From Candidatus Omnitrophota bacterium (lineage in GTDB: Bacteria; Omnitrophota; Gorgyraeia; Zapsychrales; Zapsychraceae): a DNA stretch of 32,707 nt. Made by a program: the position numbers and the translations under genes. The notes under the pieces were generated by a model. That model was not told the DNA's origin, did not search any database, and saw only the letters and a program-made list of their open reading frames with translations. Shown one piece after another: positions 1 through 12,670 of the stretch. The DNA lies in NCBI GenBank assembly GCA_029568545.1, contig JAKQAH010000195.1:1-32707 (forward strand), read 5' to 3'. Every line of letters begins with the position of its first letter. Position 1 is the first letter of the stretch.

Positions 1-1458
1 GCCATGGCGGACCCCTTGAACGTTTTCGTGGCCGATAACATCAAAGTTCTGACCGGATACATCATTAATCCGATTGTCGGGCGCCCGAACGATGTTGCCC
101 AAACCATCGAGAAATACTATCCCGGCGAAGACAAGCTCAAAGAAGAAGCCAAGGACCCCACCGAAACTTTCGATGAGATCATCAAGGATATTCAGGATAC
201 GGGCGATTTGGAGCTCATCAAGGACGCGCAGGAAGAAGGGAAGGGCGCCGTCGAGGAATTGACCGATGAGGCGCCCATCATCAAGCTCACGGACACGATT
301 ATCCAGCAGGCGGTTCTGTCCAAAGCCAGCGACGTTTTTATCGAACCGCTGGAAAAAACCATGCGCGTGCGTTATCGCATCGATGGCGTGGTCCGCGAAA
401 TCGACCGCATGACGAAAGTTCTGCATTTTCCCATCATTTCCCGCATTAAAGTCATTTCTAGTCTGGATATTTCTGAGCATCGCCTGCCTCAGGACGGACG
501 GTTCAAAACCATTATTTCCGGCGACCATGCGGTTGATTTCCGCGTCAACGTTTTGCCGACCGCTTATGGGGAAAAGATCGTTCTGAGAATCTTGGATCAG
601 GACGCGTCTTTCTTGAATATCGACCGGCTGGGATTCGAGCCGAAGTCTCTTGAGCGCCTGAAGGAATGCGCCCGCCAGCCTCACGGGATGATCCTGGCGT
701 GCGGGCCGACGGGAAGCGGGAAAACAACCACGCTGTATTCCATTCTAAAGCATGTCGATTCTCCGGAAAAGAATATTGTTACCGTTGAAGATCCCGTGGA
801 ATATCAGATGAAGGGGATGAGCCAGGTCAATATCAAGCCGGCAATGGGCCTCACATTTCCCGTGAGCCTTCGGTCCATTCTCCGTCAGGACCCGGACATT
901 ATCATGATCGGCGAGATCCGCGATTCTGAGACTCTGGACATCGCTGTGAAAGCGGCGTTGACCGGCCACCTGGTTCTAAGTTCGCTTCACACGACCACGG
1001 CGGCAGGATCGGTCGTCCGCATGGTGAACATGGGCGTGGAGCCGTTTCTCATTTGTTCTTCGGTCCTCGCTATTGTCGCCCAAAGGCTTCTCCGACGGAT
1101 TTGCACGTTCTGCAAAGAACCCTATGAAGCGACTCCGACCATTGTCGAGAAGTTCAATTTAAGGAAAGCGGCTCCCAAAGACGCGAAAAAGATCGAGTTG
1201 TTCCGCGGAAAAGGATGCAAAAAATGCCTTGGGTCAGGGTACAAAGGGCGGGTGGGCATAACCGAAATCCTCATTTTGTCCCCGAAGATCCGCGAGTTGA
1301 TCTTGGCCAGGGCCGGCGAATTCAAGCTGAAGGAGGCTGCCCGCGCGGAAGGGATGCAGACGATGCGGGAAGACGGGATCGCGAAAGTTATCGAGGGGTT
1401 GACGACCCTGGAAGAAGTCATGAGGATCACGGCGGCGGATGAAAGCAGGCCCGAATAA
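1..1458 (+). CDS. pilB: GspE/PilB-family type IV pilus assembly ATPase, 5' end outside window
   Basis: Hexameric AAA-type secretion ATPase that would power pilin extraction and polymerisation at the cytoplasmic face of the inner membrane. Reading from base 1, the frame is open and already inside an N-terminal MshEN-like domain (residues reading AMADPLNVF are typical interior sequence). The ATG at base 4 is therefore probably internal and the gene starts upstream. Counting from that Met, the Walker A motif GPTGSGKT lies at about 234-241, followed by the Asp box ITVEDPVEY, a Walker B region ending in IMIGEIRD, and the His box SSLHTTTAAG. A four-cysteine zinc site (CTFC ... CKKC) precedes the C-terminus. 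The stop lies 24 bases before a second ATPase of the same family, so the two are likely co-transcribed. The family is certain. Whether this copy is the extension motor, or part of a type II-like secretion system, cannot be told from sequence. Confidence 0.93.
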   Translation, partial: AMADPLNVFVADNIKVLTGYIINPIVGRPNDVAQTIEKYYPGEDKLKEEAKDPTETFDEIIKDIQDTGDLELIKDAQEEGKGAVEELTDEAPIIKLTDTIIQQAVLSKASDVFIEPLEKTMRVRYRIDGVVREIDRMTKVLHFPIISRIKVISSLDISEHRLPQDGRFKTIISGDHAVDFRVNVLPTAYGEKIVLRILDQDASFLNIDRLGFEPKSLERLKECARQPHGMILACGPTGSGKTTTLYSILKHVDSPEKNIVTVEDPVEYQMKGMSQVNIKPAMGLTFPVSLRSILRQDPDIIMIGEIRDSETLDIAVKAALTGHLVLSSLHTTTAAGSVVRMVNMGVEPFLICSSVLAIVAQRLLRRICTFCKEPYEATPTIVEKFNLRKAAPKDAKKIELFRGKGCKKCLGSGYKGRVGITEILILSPKIRELILARAGEFKLKEAARAEGMQTMREDGIAKVIEGLTTLEEVMRITAADESRPE

Positions 1459-1482
1459 CCCTTAAAACAGTGAAGACGATTT

Positions 1483-3192
1483 ATGGCAAAAGCGATCAAA
1501 GACAAAATTCTTAAAATGCTCATCGATGCGCAGAAGCTCACGAAAAAAGAGATGAGCGACGCCCTCGAATTGCAAAAAAAGAAAAAGATCGGGCTCGACA
1601 AGGCGCTTATCGAGACGGGGCATATCAAGGAGCAGGACCTGATGGCGATCCTTGTCCGTGAGCTGAACATCCCGTTCATCAATCTGAGCAAATACAAGAT
1701 CGATCCAGCGCTCCAGGAAGTCATCAATGAGCGCACGGCCCGGCAGTATAAGATTGTTCCTCTTTCGATGCTCGATTATACATTGACGATCGCCCTGTCC
1801 GATCCGTTCAATATTTTCCTGATCGATGATCTCAAGAATATTACCGGCAAAGAGATCGACGTGGTCATGAGCACCAATACCGAGATCGCGAAAGCCATCG
1901 ACGCGTTCTATGGCATCAAGACGGAAATGAACGTCAATGAGATCACCAAAGACATTCAGCTTGAGGACTTTGAAATAGTTGCCGATACCTCGCAGCAGGA
2001 AAGCGATGACGGATCCGTTGATGACAGTGAAAAAGCTCCGATCATCCGGATGATCAATTTGATCGTGAAAGAGGCGCTGCGCCGGCGCGCGTCGGATATC
2101 CATATCGAGCCCGAGATCGACGGCATGCGCGTGCGCTACCGCATCGACGGCATTTTGCATGATATTCTGAATATTCCCAAAGAGAACCAGAATGCGGTCA
2201 TTGTCCGCATCAAGATCATGTCCCGTCTGGATATCACGACGAACCAGGTTCCCCAAGACGGGCGATTCAAGCTGAAGATCGACAATAAGGAGGTCGATTT
2301 CCGCGTTTCGATTCTGCCGACCACGTTCGGCCAGAAAACGGTCATGCGCGTTCTCGATAAAAGCAAACTGGCTGTTGGGCTCAACGGGCTTGGATTCGAG
2401 GACAAAGCGCTCAAGACCATCAAAGAGGCGATCAAAAAACCGTTCGGCATGATTTTGGTCACGGGCCCGACCGGAAGCGGGAAGTCAACGACCCTATATT
2501 CGATTATCAATGAGCTCAATACGGTTGAACGCAACATCATTACCGTCGAGGATCCTGTGGAGTACTTGATCGAGGGCCTGACACAGATCCAAGCGCATCC
2601 GGAGATCGGGCTGACCTTTGCCGAAGGCTTGCGGGCGATCCTGCGCCAGAGCCCCGATATCGTCATGGTCGGGGAGATCCGCGATAATGAAACGGCTGAC
2701 ATTGCGATCAAAGCGTCCTTGACGGGGCAGCTGGTTTTTTCAACGCTTCACACCAACGATGCGGCGGGAACATTGACCCGGCTGGTCGATATGGGCGTCG
2801 AGCCGTTTTTGGTGGCATCGAGCCTTGTCCTTGTGAGCGCGCAGCGGCTTTGCCGGAAGATATGCTCCAAATGCAAGGAAGAGATCAGCGTTCCCGATGA
2901 TCTGCGCAAGCGGTTGTCCGAGAGGCTCCCGAAAGGGGCAAAATTTTATCATGGAAAAGGATGCGACGCCTGCAATCAGACGGGTTACCATGGGCGCGTC
3001 GGGTTGACGGAGCTTCTGGAAGTGGACGATGTGATGCGCGATATGCTGATCCAGGGGAAATCCTCCGACGATATCAAGAATTATGCGCGCAAGGAAAAAG
3101 GCATGATCACGCTTTGGGATGATGCGATCAATAAGAGCGCTGCCGGGATCACTTCTCTTGAGGAGGTTTTAAGGATCACGACCAGCGAGTAG
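1483..3192 (+). CDS. pilB: GspE/PilB-family type IV pilus assembly ATPase, full length
   Basis: Second assembly ATPase, 569 residues, the usual length for PilB/GspE. Residues 1-150 form an MshEN-type N-terminal domain, a fold that in MshE and some PilB proteins binds cyclic di-GMP. Residues from about 185 carry the N2 and ATPase domains: Walker A GPTGSGKS at 328-335, Asp box ITVEDPVEY, Walker B IVMVGEIRD, His box STLHTNDAAG, and a four-cysteine zinc site (CSKC and CDAC). It resembles the preceding protein along its length but is clearly diverged, so the pair is an old duplication, not a recent one. The ATG was chosen because it follows the upstream stop by 24 bases and gives a complete N-terminal domain. 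No PilT-like retraction ATPase was found in the window. Confidence 0.95.
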   Translation: MAKAIKDKILKMLIDAQKLTKKEMSDALELQKKKKIGLDKALIETGHIKEQDLMAILVRELNIPFINLSKYKIDPALQEVINERTARQYKIVPLSMLDYTLTIALSDPFNIFLIDDLKNITGKEIDVVMSTNTEIAKAIDAFYGIKTEMNVNEITKDIQLEDFEIVADTSQQESDDGSVDDSEKAPIIRMINLIVKEALRRRASDIHIEPEIDGMRVRYRIDGILHDILNIPKENQNAVIVRIKIMSRLDITTNQVPQDGRFKLKIDNKEVDFRVSILPTTFGQKTVMRVLDKSKLAVGLNGLGFEDKALKTIKEAIKKPFGMILVTGPTGSGKSTTLYSIINELNTVERNIITVEDPVEYLIEGLTQIQAHPEIGLTFAEGLRAILRQSPDIVMVGEIRDNETADIAIKASLTGQLVFSTLHTNDAAGTLTRLVDMGVEPFLVASSLVLVSAQRLCRKICSKCKEEISVPDDLRKRLSERLPKGAKFYHGKGCDACNQTGYHGRVGLTELLEVDDVMRDMLIQGKSSDDIKNYARKEKGMITLWDDAINKSAAGITSLEEVLRITTSE

Positions 3193-3311: not shown

Positions 3312-4517
3312 ATGCCAACATTCAAGTATATCGCGAAAAATCGGGAATCCCGCACAGTCACGGGAAAGATTTCGACGGATAACAAAGCCAATGTGATCGA
3401 GGAGTTGCGCAAGCGCAAACTTACGATCATCTCCGTGATCGAAGTCAAAGATGTTGTTGAGAGAAAATCTTCTTTCCAGAGCAAAAAAGTCAAAGGGGAG
3501 GAGATTGTGATCTTTGCCCGGCAGTTGGCGACGATGGTTGATGCCGGCATTCCCATTATCCAGGGGCTCGATGCGTTGGGTGAGCAGGTGACCCACCCGA
3601 TGTTTAAAAAAGTTTTGGGAACCGTCCAGGAAGATATTGAGCATGGAACGAGTCTTTCGGCGGCTTTTTCAAAGCATCCCCAAGTTTTTGACAACCTGTT
3701 CACAAACATGGTCAAGGTCGGGGAAACGGGCGGGGCTTTAAGCGTGGTCTTGGACCGCATTGCGACCTATATGGAAAAAACGCTGAGGCTGAAGCGCAAG
3801 GTGAAATCCGCGCTGATTTACCCGAGCGTTGTTATCTCCATGGCGACTCTGATAACGGTCGTTCTGCTGGTGAAAGTTGTGCCGACATTTACGGAGATTT
3901 ATTCTTCTTTTGACCAAGAACTTCCCGCGATGACGCAGATCCTTGTCAATATCAGTAATGCTTTAAGGCATCAGCTGATTTTTTATATTGCCGGGCTGGC
4001 CGCGGTTTTTTTCGGAATGCGGCAATGGCATAAGACGGACAAAGGAGCCCTTGTTTTGGACGGCATGACCTTGAAGCTGCCTATTTTTGGCGATCTTTTG
4101 CGAAAGGTTGCTATCAGCCGTTTCAGCCGTACGCTGGCGACGCTTGTCCAAAGCGGGGTCCCCATTCTGGAATCTTTAGATATCGTCGAGAAAACGATCG
4201 GCAACCGCGTCCTGGAGACGGTTGTGCGCGACGTCAAGGGCAATGTCCGCGAAGGGGAAAGCCTCGCTGCCCCGCTGGTCAAAAGCGGCGTGTTCCCTCC
4301 GATGGTCACGCGCATGATCGGCGTCGGCGAGAAATCGGGAAAAATGGAAACGATGCTTTTGAAGATTTCGGAATTCTATGATGATCAGGTCGATACTGCG
4401 GTGGAAGGGCTCACCAGCGTTATCGAGCCTTTGATCATTGGGGTCTTGGGGATCGTGATCGGCTTTATTGTTGTGGCGCTGTTCTTGCCGATCATCAATA
4501 TTACGCAGATCATCTGA
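3312..4517 (+). CDS. pilC: Type IV pilus inner-membrane platform protein PilC/GspF
   Basis: Integral membrane platform that couples the cytoplasmic ATPase to the growing pilus. The 401-residue length is typical. The N-terminus MPTFKYIAKNRESR matches the family start. Two T2SSF domains are visible, at about 70-193 (FARQLATMVDAGIPIIQGLDAL, here split as FARQLATMVDAG and IPIIQGL) and about 270-395 (FSRTLATLVQSGVPILESLDI, similarly conserved). Each domain ends in a hydrophobic segment, and a third helix lies near residue 215. The paired ATMVDAG / ATLVQSG motifs and the VGETGG / VGEKSG motifs are the family's internal repeat. It lies directly after the two ATPases, the usual pilB-pilC order. No strong ribosome binding site is seen before the ATG. 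Confidence 0.95.
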   Translation: MPTFKYIAKNRESRTVTGKISTDNKANVIEELRKRKLTIISVIEVKDVVERKSSFQSKKVKGEEIVIFARQLATMVDAGIPIIQGLDALGEQVTHPMFKKVLGTVQEDIEHGTSLSAAFSKHPQVFDNLFTNMVKVGETGGALSVVLDRIATYMEKTLRLKRKVKSALIYPSVVISMATLITVVLLVKVVPTFTEIYSSFDQELPAMTQILVNISNALRHQLIFYIAGLAAVFFGMRQWHKTDKGALVLDGMTLKLPIFGDLLRKVAISRFSRTLATLVQSGVPILESLDIVEKTIGNRVLETVVRDVKGNVREGESLAAPLVKSGVFPPMVTRMIGVGEKSGKMETMLLKISEFYDDQVDTAVEGLTSVIEPLIIGVLGIVIGFIVVALFLPIINITQII

Positions 4518-4523
4518 TCGCTT

Positions 4524-5159
4524 ATGAGAATCTTGATCGGTTTCTTCCTTCTTTTCTCTCTGGGCTGCTGTTTGAGCGCGCCGTCTCCGGCAGCAGCCGC
4601 AGGGGAGGAGCGCCTCCAGCACTTGCCTACGGGAAAAATCCTCGAGTTCAGTTTGTCAAGTTTGAAGGAAAGCCTTGAAAAAATAAACCAGAAAAATGAA
4701 CGGCTCGCTTTCGAAAATGAGATGCTGCGCAAAAGCATTCATGATCTTCAACGGGAGAAAGAATTCCTTTTAGGAAAAAAAGATTCGCTTTCCGGAACAG
4801 CATCGGGATTCGAGCGCGACCGGAAGATTTTACGGCCCTTAAAGATCGCTGATCTGATGGCCCGCGAGAAAAGAACCAGCGAATTGATTGATATTTTTCA
4901 ACGCGATATCGAGAGATTAAAGGACGAAATCCGGGTTTTGGAAGGCAGTTTGAGCGGGGAGGGTTTTCACGCCCGGCAACAGATGCTTTTTGATGAAATA
5001 AGGAAAACGGAAAAAGATTTAATCCGGGTTGGGAAAAAACTCAAGCTCCTGGAGCAAAAAAACGAGGCGCCGAAGAAAAAGATAGAAGTTCTGCAAAAGG
5101 AGCAGAGGGATCTGGTCCAAGAAATTAAAAGGCTTGAACAGCACAGACCCGGGTTTTAG
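4524..5159 (+). CDS. Exported coiled-coil protein of unknown function
   Basis: No family recognised. The 211-residue product begins with a signal peptide (MRILIGFFLLFSLGCC, then an Ala-Pro-rich stretch ending near AAAAG). The LGCC could alternatively be a weak lipobox, but Ser at -3 is atypical. From about residue 45 to the end it is nearly all charged heptad-like sequence (runs such as LKESLEKINQKNERL and KTEKDLIRVGKKLKLLEQK), predicting one or two long periplasmic coiled coils broken around residues 85-95. It starts 6 bases after pilC and is probably translated with it, which suggests a periplasmic accessory of the pilus. That is inference from position only. It ends just before the first riboswitch region and probably closes the pilBC transcript. 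Confidence 0.8.
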   Translation: MRILIGFFLLFSLGCCLSAPSPAAAAGEERLQHLPTGKILEFSLSSLKESLEKINQKNERLAFENEMLRKSIHDLQREKEFLLGKKDSLSGTASGFERDRKILRPLKIADLMAREKRTSELIDIFQRDIERLKDEIRVLEGSLSGEGFHARQQMLFDEIRKTEKDLIRVGKKLKLLEQKNEAPKKKIEVLQKEQRDLVQEIKRLEQHRPGF

Positions 5160-5460: not shown

Positions 5461-5479
5461 GAGAAGGTGGAAGCCTATC

Positions 5480-7669
5480 ATGGTTCGGAAAATCAAAAAA
5501 TGCCGGTTGAAACTCTCTTCTAACGGCCAAAACATGATCGAATATGTTATTGTCCTTGCCGGGATTATTGTTGTTTTAATCGCTATAACAAGGCCTGAGG
5601 GGATTTTTTCGCGGAAAATTGAGGAATCCTTGGATCTGGCTGTTGATGGAACGAAATGCGCGGCTTTGAAAGTCTGTTATGATCCTAATGGGTGTCCGAC
5701 GGTTTGCGGGAATGATTGTTGTGAAGCGGGCGAAACAATAACGAACTGTCCAGCAGATTGCAGCATCTGTACGAGCGATGCGGAATGCAACGACGGGATA
5801 TTTTGCAACGGAGTTGAAACATGCGATCCGGAGCTCGGGTGTCAGGTGGGGGATCCAGCTTGCGCAACGTGCGGGGATCTTGACCATGGCGAAAGCGATG
5901 TCTTTTATGAGTCGGCGACTGTGCCGTTCGGAGAAGAATGCGAAGAGGTTGTGAGAACTTGCGATAACGGCGAATTGACAGGGTCGCCTACGGCGACATA
6001 TGAAAGCTGTGCTCCCTTAGGGCCGGCTCCTTGCAGTTTGGCAGATGGAACAACAGCCCCTCATTTGACGGTTGGAACGTTTTATCCGTCCGCAACCGTG
6101 CCATGTGGTACCAGTTGTGCATCTACTGCTGTGCAGCAGCAATGCGTTGATGGCGATTGGACTCCAACACAATATACAGCGAGGACCTGTTCGGAGGATT
6201 GCGGGAATTGTCCGATGCCTGACGGAACAGTAATTCTCAATGGAGATAAAAAGACATATTATCAGCGTCCGGCCGTGGAGTGCTGGAATCAATGTTTTTC
6301 CGAACAACAGGTTATCACGTGTGTGGACGGCGACCTGGTTGTTGAAGGAGGTGCGCCAGGGGAAGAGCCGACAGCCACATTTGAAACATGTATTCGGACT
6401 GTTTGCGCGAATGATAATGTAAGCTGCACGGATACGGAATGCGATCCTAATTTGTTCACGAATATGGGATGTATCCACATTCCTAACGATGCTTTGTGCA
6501 ATGATGGGGCGGCTTGCACAGGAATTGAAGATGCTTCAACGTTGCCTGAGCCGAGGTACAATCGCGCTGAAGACGGGGAAGATTGGTGCGATGTGAGTTT
6601 AGGCTGTCGATTTCTCACGCATGATGAATGGTGCGATGATGGCATCATGTGTACCAGCGAAAGATGCTATCCGTACACGGATTGCCGGATCACGGTTGTT
6701 CATTCGCGTTGCGAAGATAATATATATTGCACTCTTAACAGATGCGATCCGGCCCGGGGTACGGAGGACGGCTGTTTTTATCCTCCTGATAATCGCAGAT
6801 GTTTAGGGATGGGGCCATGTGCCAGGGGCACGTGTGTTCCGGATCCTGCAACAGAGGACGGGTGCATTTATGAACCGGTTGATCTGCGATGCAACGATGG
6901 GATAAGCTGTACAGTGGATACCTGTGTTCTTGAAGAGGATCTCTACGTGTGTTCGCGTGTGGCCGATGATGCTTTGTGTACACCTGACACCTTGGATTGT
7001 ACGATCGATATGTGCGATGCGACAAGAGGGTGTGTTCATGACTCCACATGCGATGATGGGCTGGCCTGTACGATCGATGCTTGTACGGCCGCAGGTTGTG
7101 TCGCAACGGCCAATTGTGATGACGGGATCGCCTGTACTACTGATATTTGTCGTTCGACAGGGTGTGAACATCAGCCGAACAATGCGCTATGCGATGACGG
7201 TGATGGATGCACGACAGACACCTGTAATCCTATAGGTGGTGGCTGCATTAACACGCCGATAAATTGTGATGATGGATTGTCCTGCACCACGGATACATGC
7301 GATGCAGTTCTCGGCTGTCAAAACATCAGCACGTGTAACGATGGCAATCTTTGCACGCTGGATAGTTGTCGTCCGCTAGGTGTAGGCGGGCGTTGTGTGT
7401 ATCTACCAATAGCTTGCCTGAATGTAGATAATAATTTATGCACTGTAGAGGTTTGTAATCCTGCTACAGGGGCCTGTGACAGTTCTGTGCCTCTCGATTG
7501 CAGCGATAGTGACCCCTGCACCAGAACGTATGGCTGCGATCCGGTCAGCGGCTGCGAAACCATGAGAATTGGGTGCTCTCCGGACTGCCATTGCGTTGAT
7601 GCTCCGATGCCCTATTGCGCGCCAAATGATCCGCGTATACCGACTATTTGTGAACAACAAATAATATAA
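5480..7669 (+). CDS. Large cysteine-rich surface protein with Flp/type IVb-pilin-like N-terminus
   Basis: A 729-residue protein of unknown function. Residues 1-16 are a basic leader ending in Gly. Next comes QNMIEY and a hydrophobic helix to about 37, which fits the class III prepilin signal of Flp/TadE-type pilins (cleavage after G16, Glu at mature 5 and Tyr at 6). The rest is extracellular in character with about 90 cysteines by hand count. Residues 136-304 hold three related modules (pattern Y..A.VP.G..C....C.DG....T...C). From about 305 to 697 there are roughly a dozen tandem modules of about 20-45 residues built on C-[ND]-D-G-x-x-C-T-x-D-x-C, for example at 471-482, 524-535, 546-557, 571-582, 596-607 and 619-630. 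A small module of the same type occurs at 103-115. A ribosome binding site (AAGGTGG, 5464-5470) lies 9 bases before the ATG. A pilus-associated adhesin or giant pseudopilin is a reasonable inference. Function is unproven. Confidence 0.9.
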   Translation: MVRKIKKCRLKLSSNGQNMIEYVIVLAGIIVVLIAITRPEGIFSRKIEESLDLAVDGTKCAALKVCYDPNGCPTVCGNDCCEAGETITNCPADCSICTSDAECNDGIFCNGVETCDPELGCQVGDPACATCGDLDHGESDVFYESATVPFGEECEEVVRTCDNGELTGSPTATYESCAPLGPAPCSLADGTTAPHLTVGTFYPSATVPCGTSCASTAVQQQCVDGDWTPTQYTARTCSEDCGNCPMPDGTVILNGDKKTYYQRPAVECWNQCFSEQQVITCVDGDLVVEGGAPGEEPTATFETCIRTVCANDNVSCTDTECDPNLFTNMGCIHIPNDALCNDGAACTGIEDASTLPEPRYNRAEDGEDWCDVSLGCRFLTHDEWCDDGIMCTSERCYPYTDCRITVVHSRCEDNIYCTLNRCDPARGTEDGCFYPPDNRRCLGMGPCARGTCVPDPATEDGCIYEPVDLRCNDGISCTVDTCVLEEDLYVCSRVADDALCTPDTLDCTIDMCDATRGCVHDSTCDDGLACTIDACTAAGCVATANCDDGIACTTDICRSTGCEHQPNNALCDDGDGCTTDTCNPIGGGCINTPINCDDGLSCTTDTCDAVLGCQNISTCNDGNLCTLDSCRPLGVGGRCVYLPIACLNVDNNLCTVEVCNPATGACDSSVPLDCSDSDPCTRTYGCDPVSGCETMRIGCSPDCHCVDAPMPYCAPNDPRIPTICEQQII

Positions 7670-8123: not shown

Positions 8124-8519
8124 ATGAGAAGAGGACAAAAAGGTTTTACGTTGGTCGAAATCATGATCGTTGTCGCCATCATCGCATTGTTGGCCGCGAT
8201 CGCCATCCCGAACCTGCTCAGAGCTAAAATATCTGCAAACGATGCTTTAGCCCAAAGCACGCTCAGGACCCTGTCAACGGCAGCTGAGACATATGGAACC
8301 GCCAATAATGGCGTGTATCCTAGTGATATAACTTCGTTGACAAATGCTACACCGCCGTATGTTAATATGGATTATTGTGGTCAGACGATTGCTGGATTCT
8401 TGTACAGCTGTACGATGAATACTGGTGGGTACACGTTCACAGCCGGTGTTACAAACATCAATGTTACAGGAACCACAACGTACACCATGACTACGGGTGG
8501 TATTTTAGACGAAATATAA
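8124..8519 (+). CDS. pilA: Type IV major pilin (type IVa-like prepilin)
   Basis: Structural subunit of the pilus. The 131-residue prepilin has a short basic leader (MRRGQKG), prepilin peptidase cleavage after G7, mature Phe1 and Glu5 (FTLVE), and a hydrophobic helix to about residue 32 (IMIVVAIIALLAAIAIPNLL). The globular domain is small and rich in Thr, Asn and Gly, with Cys85 and Cys96 able to form a disulfide loop. The FTLVEIMIVVAIIALL signature is diagnostic. It is a single-gene unit with strong translation signals, a leader riboswitch upstream and a strong terminator behind it. This suits a highly expressed and regulated subunit. It could equally be a GspG-like major pseudopilin, but the pilMNOP operon downstream favours a pilus. 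Confidence 0.93.
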   Translation: MRRGQKGFTLVEIMIVVAIIALLAAIAIPNLLRAKISANDALAQSTLRTLSTAAETYGTANNGVYPSDITSLTNATPPYVNMDYCGQTIAGFLYSCTMNTGGYTFTAGVTNINVTGTTTYTMTTGGILDEI

Positions 8520-8727: not shown

Positions 8728-9801
8728 ATGGATATCCAGGTTTTGCTGAAAAAGTATTTCAGCACAATAAAGCAATTTCTTCCCAGCGAGCAAAAAACTT
8801 CCGCTGTCGGTTTGGATATCGGCACAGGAGAATGCAAGCTCATCGAGCTGGCGAAATCCGACAAAGATTATGAACTTGTCAGTTGGGCGATTGAGCCGAT
8901 CAAGAACGGTGATGCTAATGCCGCTATCAAAAAGATCCTCGCAGAATTGACCACCCCCTGCAAGTCTCTTTATACCTCGGTTTTTGGGAAAGGGACCCTT
9001 ATCCGCTATATCGATATGCCGAAGATGTCTCTGGAAGACCTGAAAAGCTCTTTTGATATTGAAGCCGATAAATATTTTCCTTTTGCTCAAGACCAGATTT
9101 ATACCGACTGCTACATCTTAGATGTCCGTGAAAAAGAGAAAATGATGTCTGTCATGGCGGCGGCGGCGAAAAAAGAACTTGTTGACCGTCGGGTGAAGTT
9201 GCTTGAGGAATGCGGGGTCGGCGCGGAGTTCATCGGTCTTAACCCTGTCGCTTTAGCGAATATCCTTAATGTTTTTGGCGTTGAAGATGAGGCGACAGAA
9301 AAAGGGAAAGAGGACCTTACGCTTGCCCTCCTGGACATGGGAGAATCTGTCAGCAGTTTGACGATCCTGGTCAATAAACTGCCCCGCTTTACCCGGGATA
9401 TTTTCATCGGAGGCAGGGACTTTACGAAAGGTATCAGCGTCGGCTTGGGGGTCAGTTTTGAGGAGGCAGAAAAGCTGAAACGCGAACCGGGAGAACGGCT
9501 GGAAGAGGTTAACCGGGCGTGTGATTCCGTCGTTGCCAACGTAATCCAGGAGTTGCGCTTGTCGATCGATTATTTTGCAACCGAAAAAAATCACGATACG
9601 GATTTATTGCTTTTAACGGGAGGCGCCTCGATGCTGGAAGGCGTTGCCGAAAGTTTCGAAAAAAGTCTTGAGGTCAATGTGAAGCAATGGGATCCCGTGG
9701 CAGCTTTAAAAACTGCTTCGGAATTTTCTTCCAGGGAGATGGGCAAGAAATCCTTAAAGCTGGGGGTTGCTCTGGGATTGGCGCTCTATCAATATGATTA
9801 A
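8728..9801 (+). CDS. pilM: Type IV pilus assembly protein PilM
   Basis: Actin-like cytoplasmic ATPase-fold protein that links the pilus ATPase to the inner-membrane PilN/PilO complex. The 357-residue length is usual. VGLDIGTG at 27-34 is the phosphate-1 loop of the FtsA/actin superfamily. LALLDMGESVSSLTIL is the phosphate-2 region, and LLLTGGASMLEGV near residue 292 is the adenosine motif. The segment KSSFDIEADKYFPF is the typical PilM 1C-like region. It is first in an operon with pilN, pilO, pilP and pilQ, whose reading frames overlap or nearly touch. The ATG lacks a strong ribosome binding site. Confidence 0.95.
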   Translation: MDIQVLLKKYFSTIKQFLPSEQKTSAVGLDIGTGECKLIELAKSDKDYELVSWAIEPIKNGDANAAIKKILAELTTPCKSLYTSVFGKGTLIRYIDMPKMSLEDLKSSFDIEADKYFPFAQDQIYTDCYILDVREKEKMMSVMAAAAKKELVDRRVKLLEECGVGAEFIGLNPVALANILNVFGVEDEATEKGKEDLTLALLDMGESVSSLTILVNKLPRFTRDIFIGGRDFTKGISVGLGVSFEEAEKLKREPGERLEEVNRACDSVVANVIQELRLSIDYFATEKNHDTDLLLLTGGASMLEGVAESFEKSLEVNVKQWDPVAALKTASEFSSREMGKKSLKLGVALGLALYQYD

Positions 9802-10375
9802 CATTAATCTTATCCCTCCTCATCTGAGAAAGAAACCGAAAAGCAAGCTCATCGGAAAGATGAACATTCCTTTAGAGATCATCATCGGTTCCGGCGGAGG
9901 ATTGCTGGTTTTGCTGGGAGTTATCCACGTGTTGCTGTTGTTCATCAACATTGGTAAGCTCGCGCAGCATAAAAGCCTTCAAAGCCAATGGGAAGCCATG
10001 CGCCCCGGAAAGGAAAATGTTGACTCGGTGGTCAACGAAATGCGGATATTCCAGGGGAAGTACAATGTGATCGAGGAAATTGCCGGGAAAGCCACGCTAT
10101 CCTGGGCGCAAAAGCTGAATATCTTAAGCGACAGTTTGCCGCGCGGGATATGGCTCAAGAAAATCTCTTTGGATGACGGCATGCTTTTTATTGAAGGAAG
10201 CGCTATTCCCAAGGAAACGACAGAAATTATCAGCATTCACCGCTTGACATCAAATTTGAAAGCGGATCCGAAGTTTTCGGAACATTTCACGGACCTGGAG
10301 CTTGGATCGATTCAAAGGCGCAAGATTAAAACTGTTGAAATTGCTGATTTTGTGATTACAATGAAGGTAAAATGA
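9794..10375 (+). CDS. pilN: Type IV pilus inner-membrane protein PilN
   Basis: Bitopic inner-membrane protein forming a heterodimer with PilO. Its short cytoplasmic N-terminus, MININLIPP, carries the conserved INLIP motif that docks into PilM, which fixes the start at 9794, an 8-base overlap with the end of pilM. A single transmembrane helix follows at about 28-52 (IIIGSGGGLLVLLGVIHVLL). The rest is periplasmic, with a short coiled coil and a ferredoxin-like fold region (WLKKISLDDGMLFIEGSAI). An in-frame upstream ATG at 9767 would add nine residues before the motif and is less likely. Confidence 0.93.
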   Translation: MININLIPPHLRKKPKSKLIGKMNIPLEIIIGSGGGLLVLLGVIHVLLLFINIGKLAQHKSLQSQWEAMRPGKENVDSVVNEMRIFQGKYNVIEEIAGKATLSWAQKLNILSDSLPRGIWLKKISLDDGMLFIEGSAIPKETTEIISIHRLTSNLKADPKFSEHFTDLELGSIQRRKIKTVEIADFVITMKVK

Positions 10376-10974
10376 CCATCAAAATACCTGAAAAAATCTC
10401 GTCGATTTTTGCCAAGGTTGAAGGGAACAACCGTTATTATGCTTTTGTCGGCGTTCTTTTCGTTTTTCTTCTCCTAGATTATTTTTTCTTGATGGGCCCG
10501 CAGCTGGGCGCATTGCGGAAAATAAGACCGGAGATCAAGGTCCTTTCGGATAATATCAAGAAGGCAAAAGAGGACATCAAAAAGCTGAACACCTATAAGG
10601 CGGATCTTGAAAATGCCAGCAAGAAATTTGCTGAGGCTAATCTGAAAATTAAATCGAAAGAAGAAATATCGGTTGTCTTGGAATATATCGCCAATGTTGC
10701 CAACGAAACGGGAGTCAAGATCGACCAAATTACGCCCGATATGCTAGGCCAGGAGCTGCTGACCGAGAATAATCAGCGGAAATATTTTGATTTGCCCATT
10801 TATATGGAGGCCCGGAGTGGCTATCATGATTTCGGGCGTTTTTTGAACAAGATAGAACAAAACGATATTTCTTTAAGGGTTGGGACATTTGCCGTCGTGG
10901 TCACGAACGATACGAGGCTCCATTCCATCAAGATGACGTTCAAGGCAACGATTTTTGAAGACGCAAAGTCATAA
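10372..10974 (+). CDS. pilO: Type IV pilus inner-membrane protein PilO
   Basis: Partner of PilN in the alignment complex. The 200-residue product has a cytoplasmic tail of about 20 residues, one transmembrane helix (about 22-42, YAFVGVLFVFLLLDYFFLMG), a charged coiled coil to about 100, and a C-terminal ferredoxin-like domain (FDLPIYMEARSGYHDFGRFL is the characteristic block). It overlaps pilN by ATGA, indicating translational coupling. Confidence 0.93.
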   Translation: MTIKIPEKISSIFAKVEGNNRYYAFVGVLFVFLLLDYFFLMGPQLGALRKIRPEIKVLSDNIKKAKEDIKKLNTYKADLENASKKFAEANLKIKSKEEISVVLEYIANVANETGVKIDQITPDMLGQELLTENNQRKYFDLPIYMEARSGYHDFGRFLNKIEQNDISLRVGTFAVVVTNDTRLHSIKMTFKATIFEDAKS

Positions 10975-10977
10975 TAT

Positions 10978-11331
10978 ATGAAGAGAAAAGCTCTGTCTTT
11001 CGCTTTGATTTTGATCATGGCCGGCGCGGTTGCGGCGCAGGAGCAAACGCCTTTTGTCTATGACGACGGCGGCAAACGCGACCCGCTTTGGCCTTTAGTT
11101 AATGCCAATGGCGCTATTCTGAATTACGAGTCGGAGTTTTTGATTACCGATCTGTCTTTGGAAGGCATCATGGCGGGTGCCCAGGGCGAAAATTTTGCGA
11201 TCATCAATGGGCGGATCTTAAAGACAGGGGATGCTGTCGGGCAGTTTGTTGTGGGCGGAATTGCCGAAGATTCGATTATTTTGAAAAAGGGGAAACAGAA
11301 ATTTGAACTTAAACTAAAAAAGGGGGAATGA
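10978..11331 (+). CDS. pilP: PilP-like periplasmic protein of the pilus alignment complex
   Basis: The 117-residue product begins with a signal peptide (MKRKALSFALILIMAG, cleavage likely after AVAA). It continues with DDGGKRDPLWPL and a small beta-rich domain (LSLEGIMAGAQGENFAIINGRILKTGD and on) matching the PilP / GspC homology region that contacts the secretin. There is no lipobox cysteine, whereas PilP of Proteobacteria is a lipoprotein of about 170 residues, so this is a shorter soluble form. Gene order N-O-P-Q supports the name more than sequence identity does. It starts 3 bases after pilO. Confidence 0.82.
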   Translation: MKRKALSFALILIMAGAVAAQEQTPFVYDDGGKRDPLWPLVNANGAILNYESEFLITDLSLEGIMAGAQGENFAIINGRILKTGDAVGQFVVGGIAEDSIILKKGKQKFELKLKKGE

Positions 11332-11332
11332 A

Positions 11333-12670
11333 ATGTTCAAAAAGACGATTGTCATGAGCTTGGTCATCGGGATGATGGCTGTCTGCGCTTATGCGCAGCA
11401 AGCGGCAGCGCCTGCAGCAACGACGGAAGTTCCCGTCACGCAGGAAGGAAATGTCAGTTTTGATTTTCGCGATGCGGACATCCAGAATGTTTTCAGGATT
11501 TTATCCTTCAAAAGCGGCGTGAATATCGTTGCGGGGCCGGAAGTCACGGGGATGGTGACCATCAAATTGGATGATGTGCCGTGGCAACAAGCGTTGGACG
11601 TTATTCTGCAGACCTACGGTTATGCGTATGAAAAGAAAGGCAATATTATCTCCGTGACGACGATCGAGAAATTGAAACAGCGCCGGGAAAATGCAACGCT
11701 TCTTGCTGAGCAAGAAGCCCTGGAGACGCAGATCTTTACCCTGAATTTCGGGAAGGCATCGGAGATTATTGCGTCGATCAGCAAGATGAAATCCGAGCGG
11801 GGAGCCATTGATTTTGATGAGCGGACCAATACGGTTATTGTCACTGATATTAGCAGCAGGCTCAAGACCATCGAAAGTGTTATTGAAACGTTGGATACAA
11901 CAACGCCTCAGGTTTTGATTGAAACAAAGATTGTGGAAACGAATCTGGACGACACGGAAAATCTCGGTGTTGACTGGATGACGAAAGCTTCCGTGACGGG
12001 ATCCGCAAGGCCGATTTCCTATCCGTTTAAACTCGGCAGCACGGAAAACCGGTTTGCTCCTGGGCCCATAGAAGACCTGGATGTTGAAGAAGATTCAAAT
12101 ACTTTCACTTACGGAACGCTCAATTTTACCCAATTTCAGGCTGTTTTGGAATTGCTTAAATCGCGCACAGATACCAATATTCTATCGAATCCTAGAATTG
12201 TGACGCTGGACAATCGGCCGGCAAGAATCGCTGTCGGTACGGAATACCCGATACCGTCTTTTGGCGCCAATGCGGAGACGGGTGAATTGCAGACAACGGG
12301 CATCAATTATGAGAATGTTGGTATTAATTTTGAGGTCACACCTCATGTGAACGTGGCTGGATTTGTGACGCTTGAAATCAGCCCGGAAGTTTCAGAAGTT
12401 TCGGGAACGACGAGTTTTCAAGGCATTAACGTTCCGGTGATCGGGACCGAAAAAGTGAAGACGAACGTTATGGTCAAAGATGGCGATACGCTGGTCATTG
12501 CTGGGTTGCTTACGGACAGGCTGACGGACATAAAAAAGAAAGTCCCATTCTTAGGGGATATCCCGATAGCCGGTCTCATTTTCAGGAAAACGGAAAAAAC
12601 GATTTCCAAGACGGATTTGATTATCTTTTTGACTCCGCATATTATTACTCCGGAAGTTCCGAAGTCGTAA
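11333..12670 (+). CDS. pilQ: Type IV pilus secretin (PilQ/GspD family), short form
   Basis: Outer-membrane secretin through which the pilus exits. The 445-residue product has a signal peptide (MFKKTIVMSLVIGMMAVCAYA), an N0/STN domain (about 42-105, FDFRDADIQNVFRILS), an N1 domain (about 130-190), and the secretin domain from about 195 to 440. Diagnostic blocks are VLIETKIVETN, LSNPRIVTLDNRPARI, VGTEYPIPSF, DGDTLVIAGLL, VPFLGDIPIAGLIFR and TDLIIFLTPHII. The peptidoglycan-binding AMIN domains of classical PilQ are absent, which accounts for the short length. It starts one base after the pilP stop and ends the operon. Confidence 0.94.
   Translation: MFKKTIVMSLVIGMMAVCAYAQQAAAPAATTEVPVTQEGNVSFDFRDADIQNVFRILSFKSGVNIVAGPEVTGMVTIKLDDVPWQQALDVILQTYGYAYEKKGNIISVTTIEKLKQRRENATLLAEQEALETQIFTLNFGKASEIIASISKMKSERGAIDFDERTNTVIVTDISSRLKTIESVIETLDTTTPQVLIETKIVETNLDDTENLGVDWMTKASVTGSARPISYPFKLGSTENRFAPGPIEDLDVEEDSNTFTYGTLNFTQFQAVLELLKSRTDTNILSNPRIVTLDNRPARIAVGTEYPIPSFGANAETGELQTTGINYENVGINFEVTPHVNVAGFVTLEISPEVSEVSGTTSFQGINVPVIGTEKVKTNVMVKDGDTLVIAGLLTDRLTDIKKKVPFLGDIPIAGLIFRKTEKTISKTDLIIFLTPHIITPEVPKS

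Follow-up and report, generated by a model that had tools for sequence, protein, structure and literature searches.

A giant cysteine-rich protein with an Flp-like prepilin N-terminus encoded in a type IVa pilus operon of Omnitrophota

Known Flp pilins are shorter than about 100 residues and carry no cysteine-rich extensions. What, then, is a giant cysteine-rich protein that begins like such a pilin, and to which pilus, if any, would it belong? The question is raised by a stretch of 32,707 nucleotides from a Candidatus Omnitrophota bacterium (contig JAKQAH010000195.1; hereafter the window), which belongs to an assembly (G000) of 1.4 Mb in 196 contigs that is 78% complete. All features of the window described below lie on its forward strand.

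The open reading frame at 5480-7669 starts with ATG, 9 nt downstream of a Shine-Dalgarno-like AAGGTGG (5464-5470), and encodes 729 residues, 91 of which are cysteines. Residues 1-16 (5480-5527; MVRKIKKCRLKLSSNG) form a putative leader peptide with six lysines or arginines and no acidic residue, and a prepilin peptidase is predicted to cut after Gly16. The mature protein would then begin with QNMIEY, with Glu at +5 and Tyr at +6. The Flp-like pilin module (residues 17-59; 5528-5656) consists of the QNMIEY helix, an R-P-E-G break and a second helix, and is the counterpart of the entire free-standing short homologues described below. One cysteine lies within the leader and the other 90 beyond residue 59, in a cysteine-rich part of ~670 residues that follows the single hydrophobic helix and the second helix. 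Its first region (residues 60-303; 5657-6388) starts with a joint, CYDPNGCPTVCGNDCCEAGE..NCPADC, that is also present in giants at other loci. The remainder is dominated by tandem Dicty_CTDC-like repeats (residues 309-700; 6404-7579): PF00526 matches seven stretches (E 2.5e-12), and a pattern scan found C[DN]DG..C..[DE].C at residues 385, 471, 524, 546, 571, 596 and 619. The leader, the QNMIEY start and the roughly 90 cysteines in tandem modules are as the initial annotation had described them.

An AlphaFold model of residues 1-130, computed with 20 homologues, has a mean pLDDT of 72 and contains helices at 14-37 and 42-62 (pLDDT ~80-93); Foldseek found no PDB match to it. The model of all 729 residues is usable for the two N-terminal helices only, as the rest has a pLDDT below 50. 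Neither phmmer against PDB nor a search of NCBIfam gave a match to the giant, and tblastn against phages returned nothing and hence no indication of phage origin. Horizontal acquisition was considered as well, but the overall GC equals that of pilC and the GC3 of 0.45, below pilB and pilC, is near that of pilA, which gives no clear sign of it.

Is the N-terminus a class III prepilin, as first proposed? Taken alone it matched no Pfam model, and PF04964 (Flp_Fap) found no match in the whole genome, the window protein included. The Flp kinship is therefore revealed only by a profile of homologues. Matches to the first 59 residues were obtained in 51 of 55 relatives, and a leave-genus-out N-terminal profile of the class found at the pnp locus (see below) retrieved the window ORF at E 2.3e-16 (Z=100,000); among the 1,162 ORFs scanned, its sole other matches were the orthologue in G004 and a further Flp-like ORF of the same genome. 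A profile of the Tad-cluster class also recognised the window ORF (E 2e-9), although the module scores 39.6 bits with that class vs 61.9 bits with the pnp-locus class. Across an alignment of 28 homologous modules Q+1, E+5 and G33 are invariant, Y+6 and P31 are at least 90% conserved, and position -1 is G or A in all 28. The P-x-G after the helix and the second amphipathic helix are conserved in the homologues, like the whole short protein. The class III signal model PF04021 matches 15 of the 28 modules (best 1e-8) and PF04964 matches 10 at E<=1 (best 3.7e-5); the window module carries the Q-x-x-x-E motif with a score under the PF04021 threshold. The best PDB match of the homologue profile was 8u1k, a chain of an Flp-type PilA, although this match is weak (E 0.12). 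The proposal would have failed if the N-terminus matched plain signal anchors and its homologues lacked the prepilin pattern, or if the helix were not conserved together with the repeats. Instead, G-Q-x-x-x-E-Y is kept across the homologues, and their helix is retained alongside the cysteine-rich part.

Judged from sequence, the protein nevertheless falls outside a strict definition of Flp pilins. The class III signal is there (basic leader, Gly or Ala at -1, Glu+5, Tyr+6), but the model match is lacking, the 729 residues exceed the size limit of 100 that the short homologues respect, and the giant is encoded in a type IVa pilus (T4aP) operon rather than in a tad locus. Likewise, it combines a prepilin N-terminus with a non-pilin module, as modular pilins do, while lacking their N-methylation motif (IPR012902/PF07963) and globular pilin domain. 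PF07963 had no match in the window protein, whose model consists of two helices followed by a cysteine-rich region. TadE/Tad Pfam models matched neither the window protein nor family members, and the C-terminal beta-propeller (PilY1 domain) was absent from the Pfam scan of the window protein.

Homologues of the module occur in Tad clusters, at a locus between pnp and a ParA-like gene, in the T4aP operon of the window's genus, and scattered in other places. Among the 28 aligned homologues are free-standing Flp-like proteins of 50-65 residues without cysteines. The Tad clusters combine a secretin and a TadZ-TadA-like ATPase with 3-6 Flp-like ORFs. Of these ORFs, one is of the present class: it is cysteine-free, measures 50-66 aa and is the nearest paralogue of the window module. 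The ATPase of these loci (L070:11958-14001, with orthologues in G003, G007, G019, G034 and others) is a single protein of ~720-735 aa that looks like a fusion of TadZ (ParA-like) and TadA, and it stands beside the 3-6 tandem Flp-like prepilins.

The second setting is a conserved interval between pnp and a gene for a ParA-like ATPase that has a carbohydrate-binding domain. Here, 12 genomes have a short form (49-77 aa when mature, 0-2 cysteines), and others have a long form, defined as one with at least 10 cysteines: L036 (1425 aa, 160 Cys), L035 (792 aa, 92 Cys), L040 (734 aa, 126 Cys), L042 (286 aa, 43 Cys), L043 (292 aa, 40 Cys) and L034 (990 aa and 181 Cys up to the contig end). Orthologous positions are thus occupied by a short or a long form alternately. 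Two short forms end precisely at the joint (VCYDSDGNPC in L083, ICFDRDGNPC in L071), past which the long forms run on with CxxVCGNxCCExGE. Giants at different loci have the joint motif in common, a pattern that suggests a shared fused ancestor or exchange. In the ParA-like protein itself, a ParA/AAA_31 ATPase is joined with a glycogen-binding domain (AMPK1_CBM); its gene keeps a conserved place beside the Flp-like gene, as at L050:10592-11818, L036:6482-7768 and L040:11183-12424.

A survey of related genomes found the same architecture in 19 genomes, which represent 13 genera and four families of a single order; G034 encodes three long forms and G021 two. Relatives of the N-terminus occur in 140 of the 384 genomes of the phylum survey, and every confirmed cysteine-rich long form lies within that one order. 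A module tree (48 columns) implies at least eight changes between short and long forms, although many of its forks are weak. Two arrangements may be mentioned in passing. In G039 (L241:5380-6878), a long cysteine-rich form (442 aa mature, 62 Cys) and a short cysteine-free one (63 aa) are direct neighbours on one strand, close to pnp, and look like a major/minor pair. The near-complete G034 has three Flp-headed cysteine-rich proteins (L041:7851-11437 and L037:8413-10989), two of them in tandem; one follows a GGDEF gene and is near lptD.

In the window, the giant gene is embedded in a T4aP operon. Upstream are a T2SSE-family (PilB/GspE-like) ATPase cut by the window start (1-1458; PF00437, 1.6e-138), a second, PilB-like T2SSE ATPase with an MshEN domain (1483-3192; PF00437, 2.4e-135), the platform protein PilC (3312-4517; PF00482, 4e-66) and an exported coiled-coil protein (4524-5159) that adjoins the giant gene throughout the genus. 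Downstream follow a PilA-like type IVa pilin with the N_methyl motif (8124-8519; PF07963, 7e-10), PilM (8728-9801; PF11104, 4e-43), PilN (9767-10375; PF05137), PilO (10372-10974; PF04350), a PilP/T2SSB-like protein (10978-11331; PF16537, slightly below the cut-off) and the secretin PilQ (11333-12670; TIGR02515, 2.9e-92, above the cut-off), and then RNase G, L21 and Obg. The two distinct PilB/GspE-type ATPases in tandem 5' of pilC (1-3192) are kept across Omnitrophota T4aP operons, and the PilC relatives that share 91-93% identity all belong to MAGs of Candidatus Omnitrophota.

The position of the giant between pilC and pilA is kept in four species of the window's genus. The order PilC, coiled-coil protein, giant, PilA, PilM is found in the window, G004 and G002, and in G003 as far as the contig end; the orthologues measure 841 aa with 98 Cys in G004 and 126 aa with 14 Cys in G002. 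This backs the suggested link to a type IVa-like machinery. The gaps on either side of the giant gene (320 and 454 nt) make separate transcription possible, and a promoter search around it gave no strong call. About 35 other Omnitrophota T4aP operons have no giant at that position. Other T4aP operons of Omnitrophota (L095:11346-14309, L096:11081-13925) have a minor-pilin set between pilA and pilM, with N_methyl proteins and, by eye, a PilX/GspK-like protein of ~566 aa, a set that is absent from the window's genus. We considered the giant as a stand-in for these PilA-adjacent minor pilins but do not argue for this idea, because some giant-free operons lack them too.

How did the gene arrive there? 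In its own genome and in G001, the pnp/ParA interval contains no Flp-like gene of this class, and the modules of the window's genus cluster with a pnp-locus giant (support 97/87 in the 48-column tree). A move from the pnp locus into the T4aP operon would best explain this distribution, as far as 48 alignment columns can tell.

Our preferred explanation, whose chances we put at about even, is a modular class III (Flp-like) prepilin, cut by PilD and serving as a minor or tip subunit of the T4aP, with an adhesive cysteine-rich chain. A complete miniature Flp-type pilin of ~43 residues (helix with its leader, P-x-G break and second helix) is joined to a long array of small cysteine-rich modules. 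The PilD-type prepilin peptidase of the genome would cut the leader after Gly16, and the helix with Glu5 would then act as inner-membrane anchor and dock into a type IV filament. The exposed cysteine-rich chain may form a stiff stalk of variable length for binding to surfaces or to other cells. Within the window's genus, the place of the gene in its operon suggests the type IVa machinery as partner, with the giant as a minor or tip subunit beside PilA. This explanation draws on the module structure, the kinship with short Flp-like proteins, the synteny with T4aP genes, the recurrence of the fusion and the diversity of its payloads. Against it, the operon link is confined to one genus, and elsewhere the gene stands apart from pilus genes. 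Moreover, an Flp helix inside a T4aP filament would amount to cross-class assembly, and we know of no tested system of that sort.

In another explanation, the protein is a pilin-derived membrane anchor that is exported, perhaps cleaved, and holds the cysteine-rich chain in the inner membrane or periplasm without ever polymerising. Most loci outside the window's genus are indeed not beside pilus genes (the giant gene is next to pnp/parA, metH, smc or lptD), sizes reach 1425 aa, and the invariant positions are no less necessary for recognition and insertion than they are for polymerisation. However, the conserved P-x-G and second amphipathic helix go beyond the needs of an anchor, the T4aP operon position is kept in four species, and the invariant Glu+5 is what subunit docking requires in known pilins. 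We regard a mere anchor as rather unlikely.

If the giant does polymerise, which machine would assemble it? PilM of T4aP is present in 18 of the 19 carriers of long forms, including all 13 near-complete ones. The TadZ-TadA fusion ATPase is found in most other carriers but is absent from G006 and G016 (both 95% complete) and from G287 (94%). Hence, T4aP is the sole pilus machine common to every near-complete carrier, and the operon context concurs. Nearly all carriers also encode an orphan ATPase of ~430 aa that resembles CpaF/TadA (in G000, contig C175, at L248:9017-10306). We rejected it as a second Tad-like system, since its surroundings are housekeeping genes (by eye, proline-tRNA ligase, rseP-like and dxr-like genes) with no pilus genes among them. 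Most genomes, G000 included, have one PilD-type A24 peptidase, which presumably cleaves both N-methylated and Flp-like prepilins; the missing second peptidase is a weak observation in G000, a genome that is just 78% complete.

Alternatively, the giant might belong to the Tad (type IVc) pilus as a minor or tip pilin, comparable to KilN/TadG, and its T4aP neighbourhood would then be incidental. Flp is the pilin class of Tad, most carriers have Tad loci with 3-6 Flp-like prepilins, each Tad cluster has one prepilin that is the nearest paralogue of the module, and Kil tips have shown that Tad pili can bear modular minor pilins (PMC12075869). Yet the three genomes named above encode long forms without the TadZ-TadA ATPase, and both the bit scores and the tree place the window module with the pnp-locus class rather than the Tad-cluster class. 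This makes assembly into a Tad pilus improbable.

The cysteine-rich payload is not the same in all long forms. Dicty_CTDC occurs in the window protein and G004, DUF4215 in G010, G016 and G019, and thrombospondin type 1 in G008 (E 1.7e-15), while other long forms have a payload without a named domain. The thrombospondin domains (TSP1_ADAMTS) belong to a bacterial protein with an Flp-like head, at L038:3398-5851. Such variable arrays are typical of adhesins and suggest an adhesive role.

Disulfides within this chain are plausible, since DsbA-family proteins occur in all 14 genomes tested. They are not assured, because Pfam detected neither DsbB nor VKOR in 13 genomes, eight of them at least 90% complete. 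These 13-14 Omnitrophota genomes with DsbA but without DsbB or VKOR, G000 among them, thus encode proteins of up to 181 cysteines. The same gap would fit cysteines that serve as metal ligands or free thiols, the chain then being a metal-binding or redox surface structure. However, DsbA can function without DsbB and VKOR, as in C. botulinum (PMC12453122). The long forms are also devoid of CxxCH haem motifs. In known proteins, moreover, TSP1 and other such payload families contain disulfide bonds. A metal or thiol function seems very unlikely.

Finally, an ordinary signal-anchored, cysteine-rich secreted protein that resembles a prepilin by chance would suit the N-terminus without a Pfam match and the genome without a Flp_Fap match, but it is already contradicted by the homologue profile (E 2.3e-16), the invariant Q+1 and E+5 in 28 homologues and the short free-standing homologues at orthologous positions, and we give it next to no weight.

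How does our preferred candidate, a modular Flp-like prepilin of the T4aP, compare with known systems? It is like Flp/Fap pilins (PF04964, e.g., Caulobacter PilA) in its G-x4-E-Y class III signal and single hydrophobic helix; these are very short pilins, as are the short homologues, whereas the window protein is giant, cysteine-rich and below PF04964. With the class III signal peptide proteins (PF04021; archaeal Q-x-x-x-E prepilins), which 15 of 28 members match, it shares Q+1 and E+5. Archaeal class III targets are cleaved by EppA-type peptidases, whereas the sole A24 peptidase seen here is PilD-type.

Modular type IV pilins such as PilB and PilC of Streptococcus sanguinis combine a prepilin signal and Glu5 with a non-pilin module that is thought to be displayed at the tip; they occur in many architectures and many bacteria, in a published survey restricted to IPR012902 (PMC8179133, PMC9934059). 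The window protein likewise has an N-terminal pilin part bearing a non-pilin module, but instead of an N-methylation signal and a globular domain it has a tiny Flp/class III module and a cysteine-rich repeat payload. The Tad tip pilins KilN/TadG and KilL are large minor pilins whose variable C-terminal domains adapt the pilus to cell-cell contact (PMC12075869). Our candidate minor pilin is similarly large and variable in its C-terminal domains; in contrast, KilN/TadG and KilL have a pilin-like globular fold and are encoded in Tad loci, while the pilin part of the giant is just an Flp-like helix, encoded among T4aP genes. The T4aP tip adhesins PilY1/PilC and their myxobacterial cysteine-rich variants are also large and extracellular, with a median of up to 41 Cys (PMC13190605), but they are non-pilins with a beta-propeller, and no homology of the giant to them was detected. 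The giant ORFs of Omnitrophota (>20 kb) are proposed adhesins with adhesion modules suggested for cell-cell contact (PMC10066038). They share with our protein the phylum and large extracellular chains; they are far larger and multi-TM, and the text consulted describes no prepilin signal for them.

Was the fusion new, as initially suspected? Flp-headed giants with cysteine-rich arrays in a T4aP operon are not described in the literature searched, and to that extent the suspicion holds. The principle, however, is already established, with modules grafted on N-methylated pilins (PMC8179133) and on Tad tip pilins (PMC12075869).

More tentatively, the whole distribution could mean that an Flp-class subunit repeatedly gained and lost giant cysteine-rich adhesive arrays at one locus and entered a type IVa operon in one genus. 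The result would be a cross-class pilus, a type IVa filament with a giant tip or decoration of type IVc origin, possibly for contact with host or prey; we find this scenario possible but on the whole doubtful.

Omnitrophota are mostly uncultured, and their attachment to host or prey is believed to rest on Tad pili, T4aP and giant adhesin-like ORFs (PMC10066038). As a family with interchangeable payloads, the Flp-headed giants would offer a concrete candidate for the contact molecule of Omnitrophota. They would extend the principle of modular pilins from N-methylated globular pilins to a minimal Flp pilin, and they raise the question whether a subunit of Tad ancestry can be assembled by type IVa machinery that has just one PilD. 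Because short and long forms share a locus in related species, the fusion offers a natural experiment in pilus decoration.
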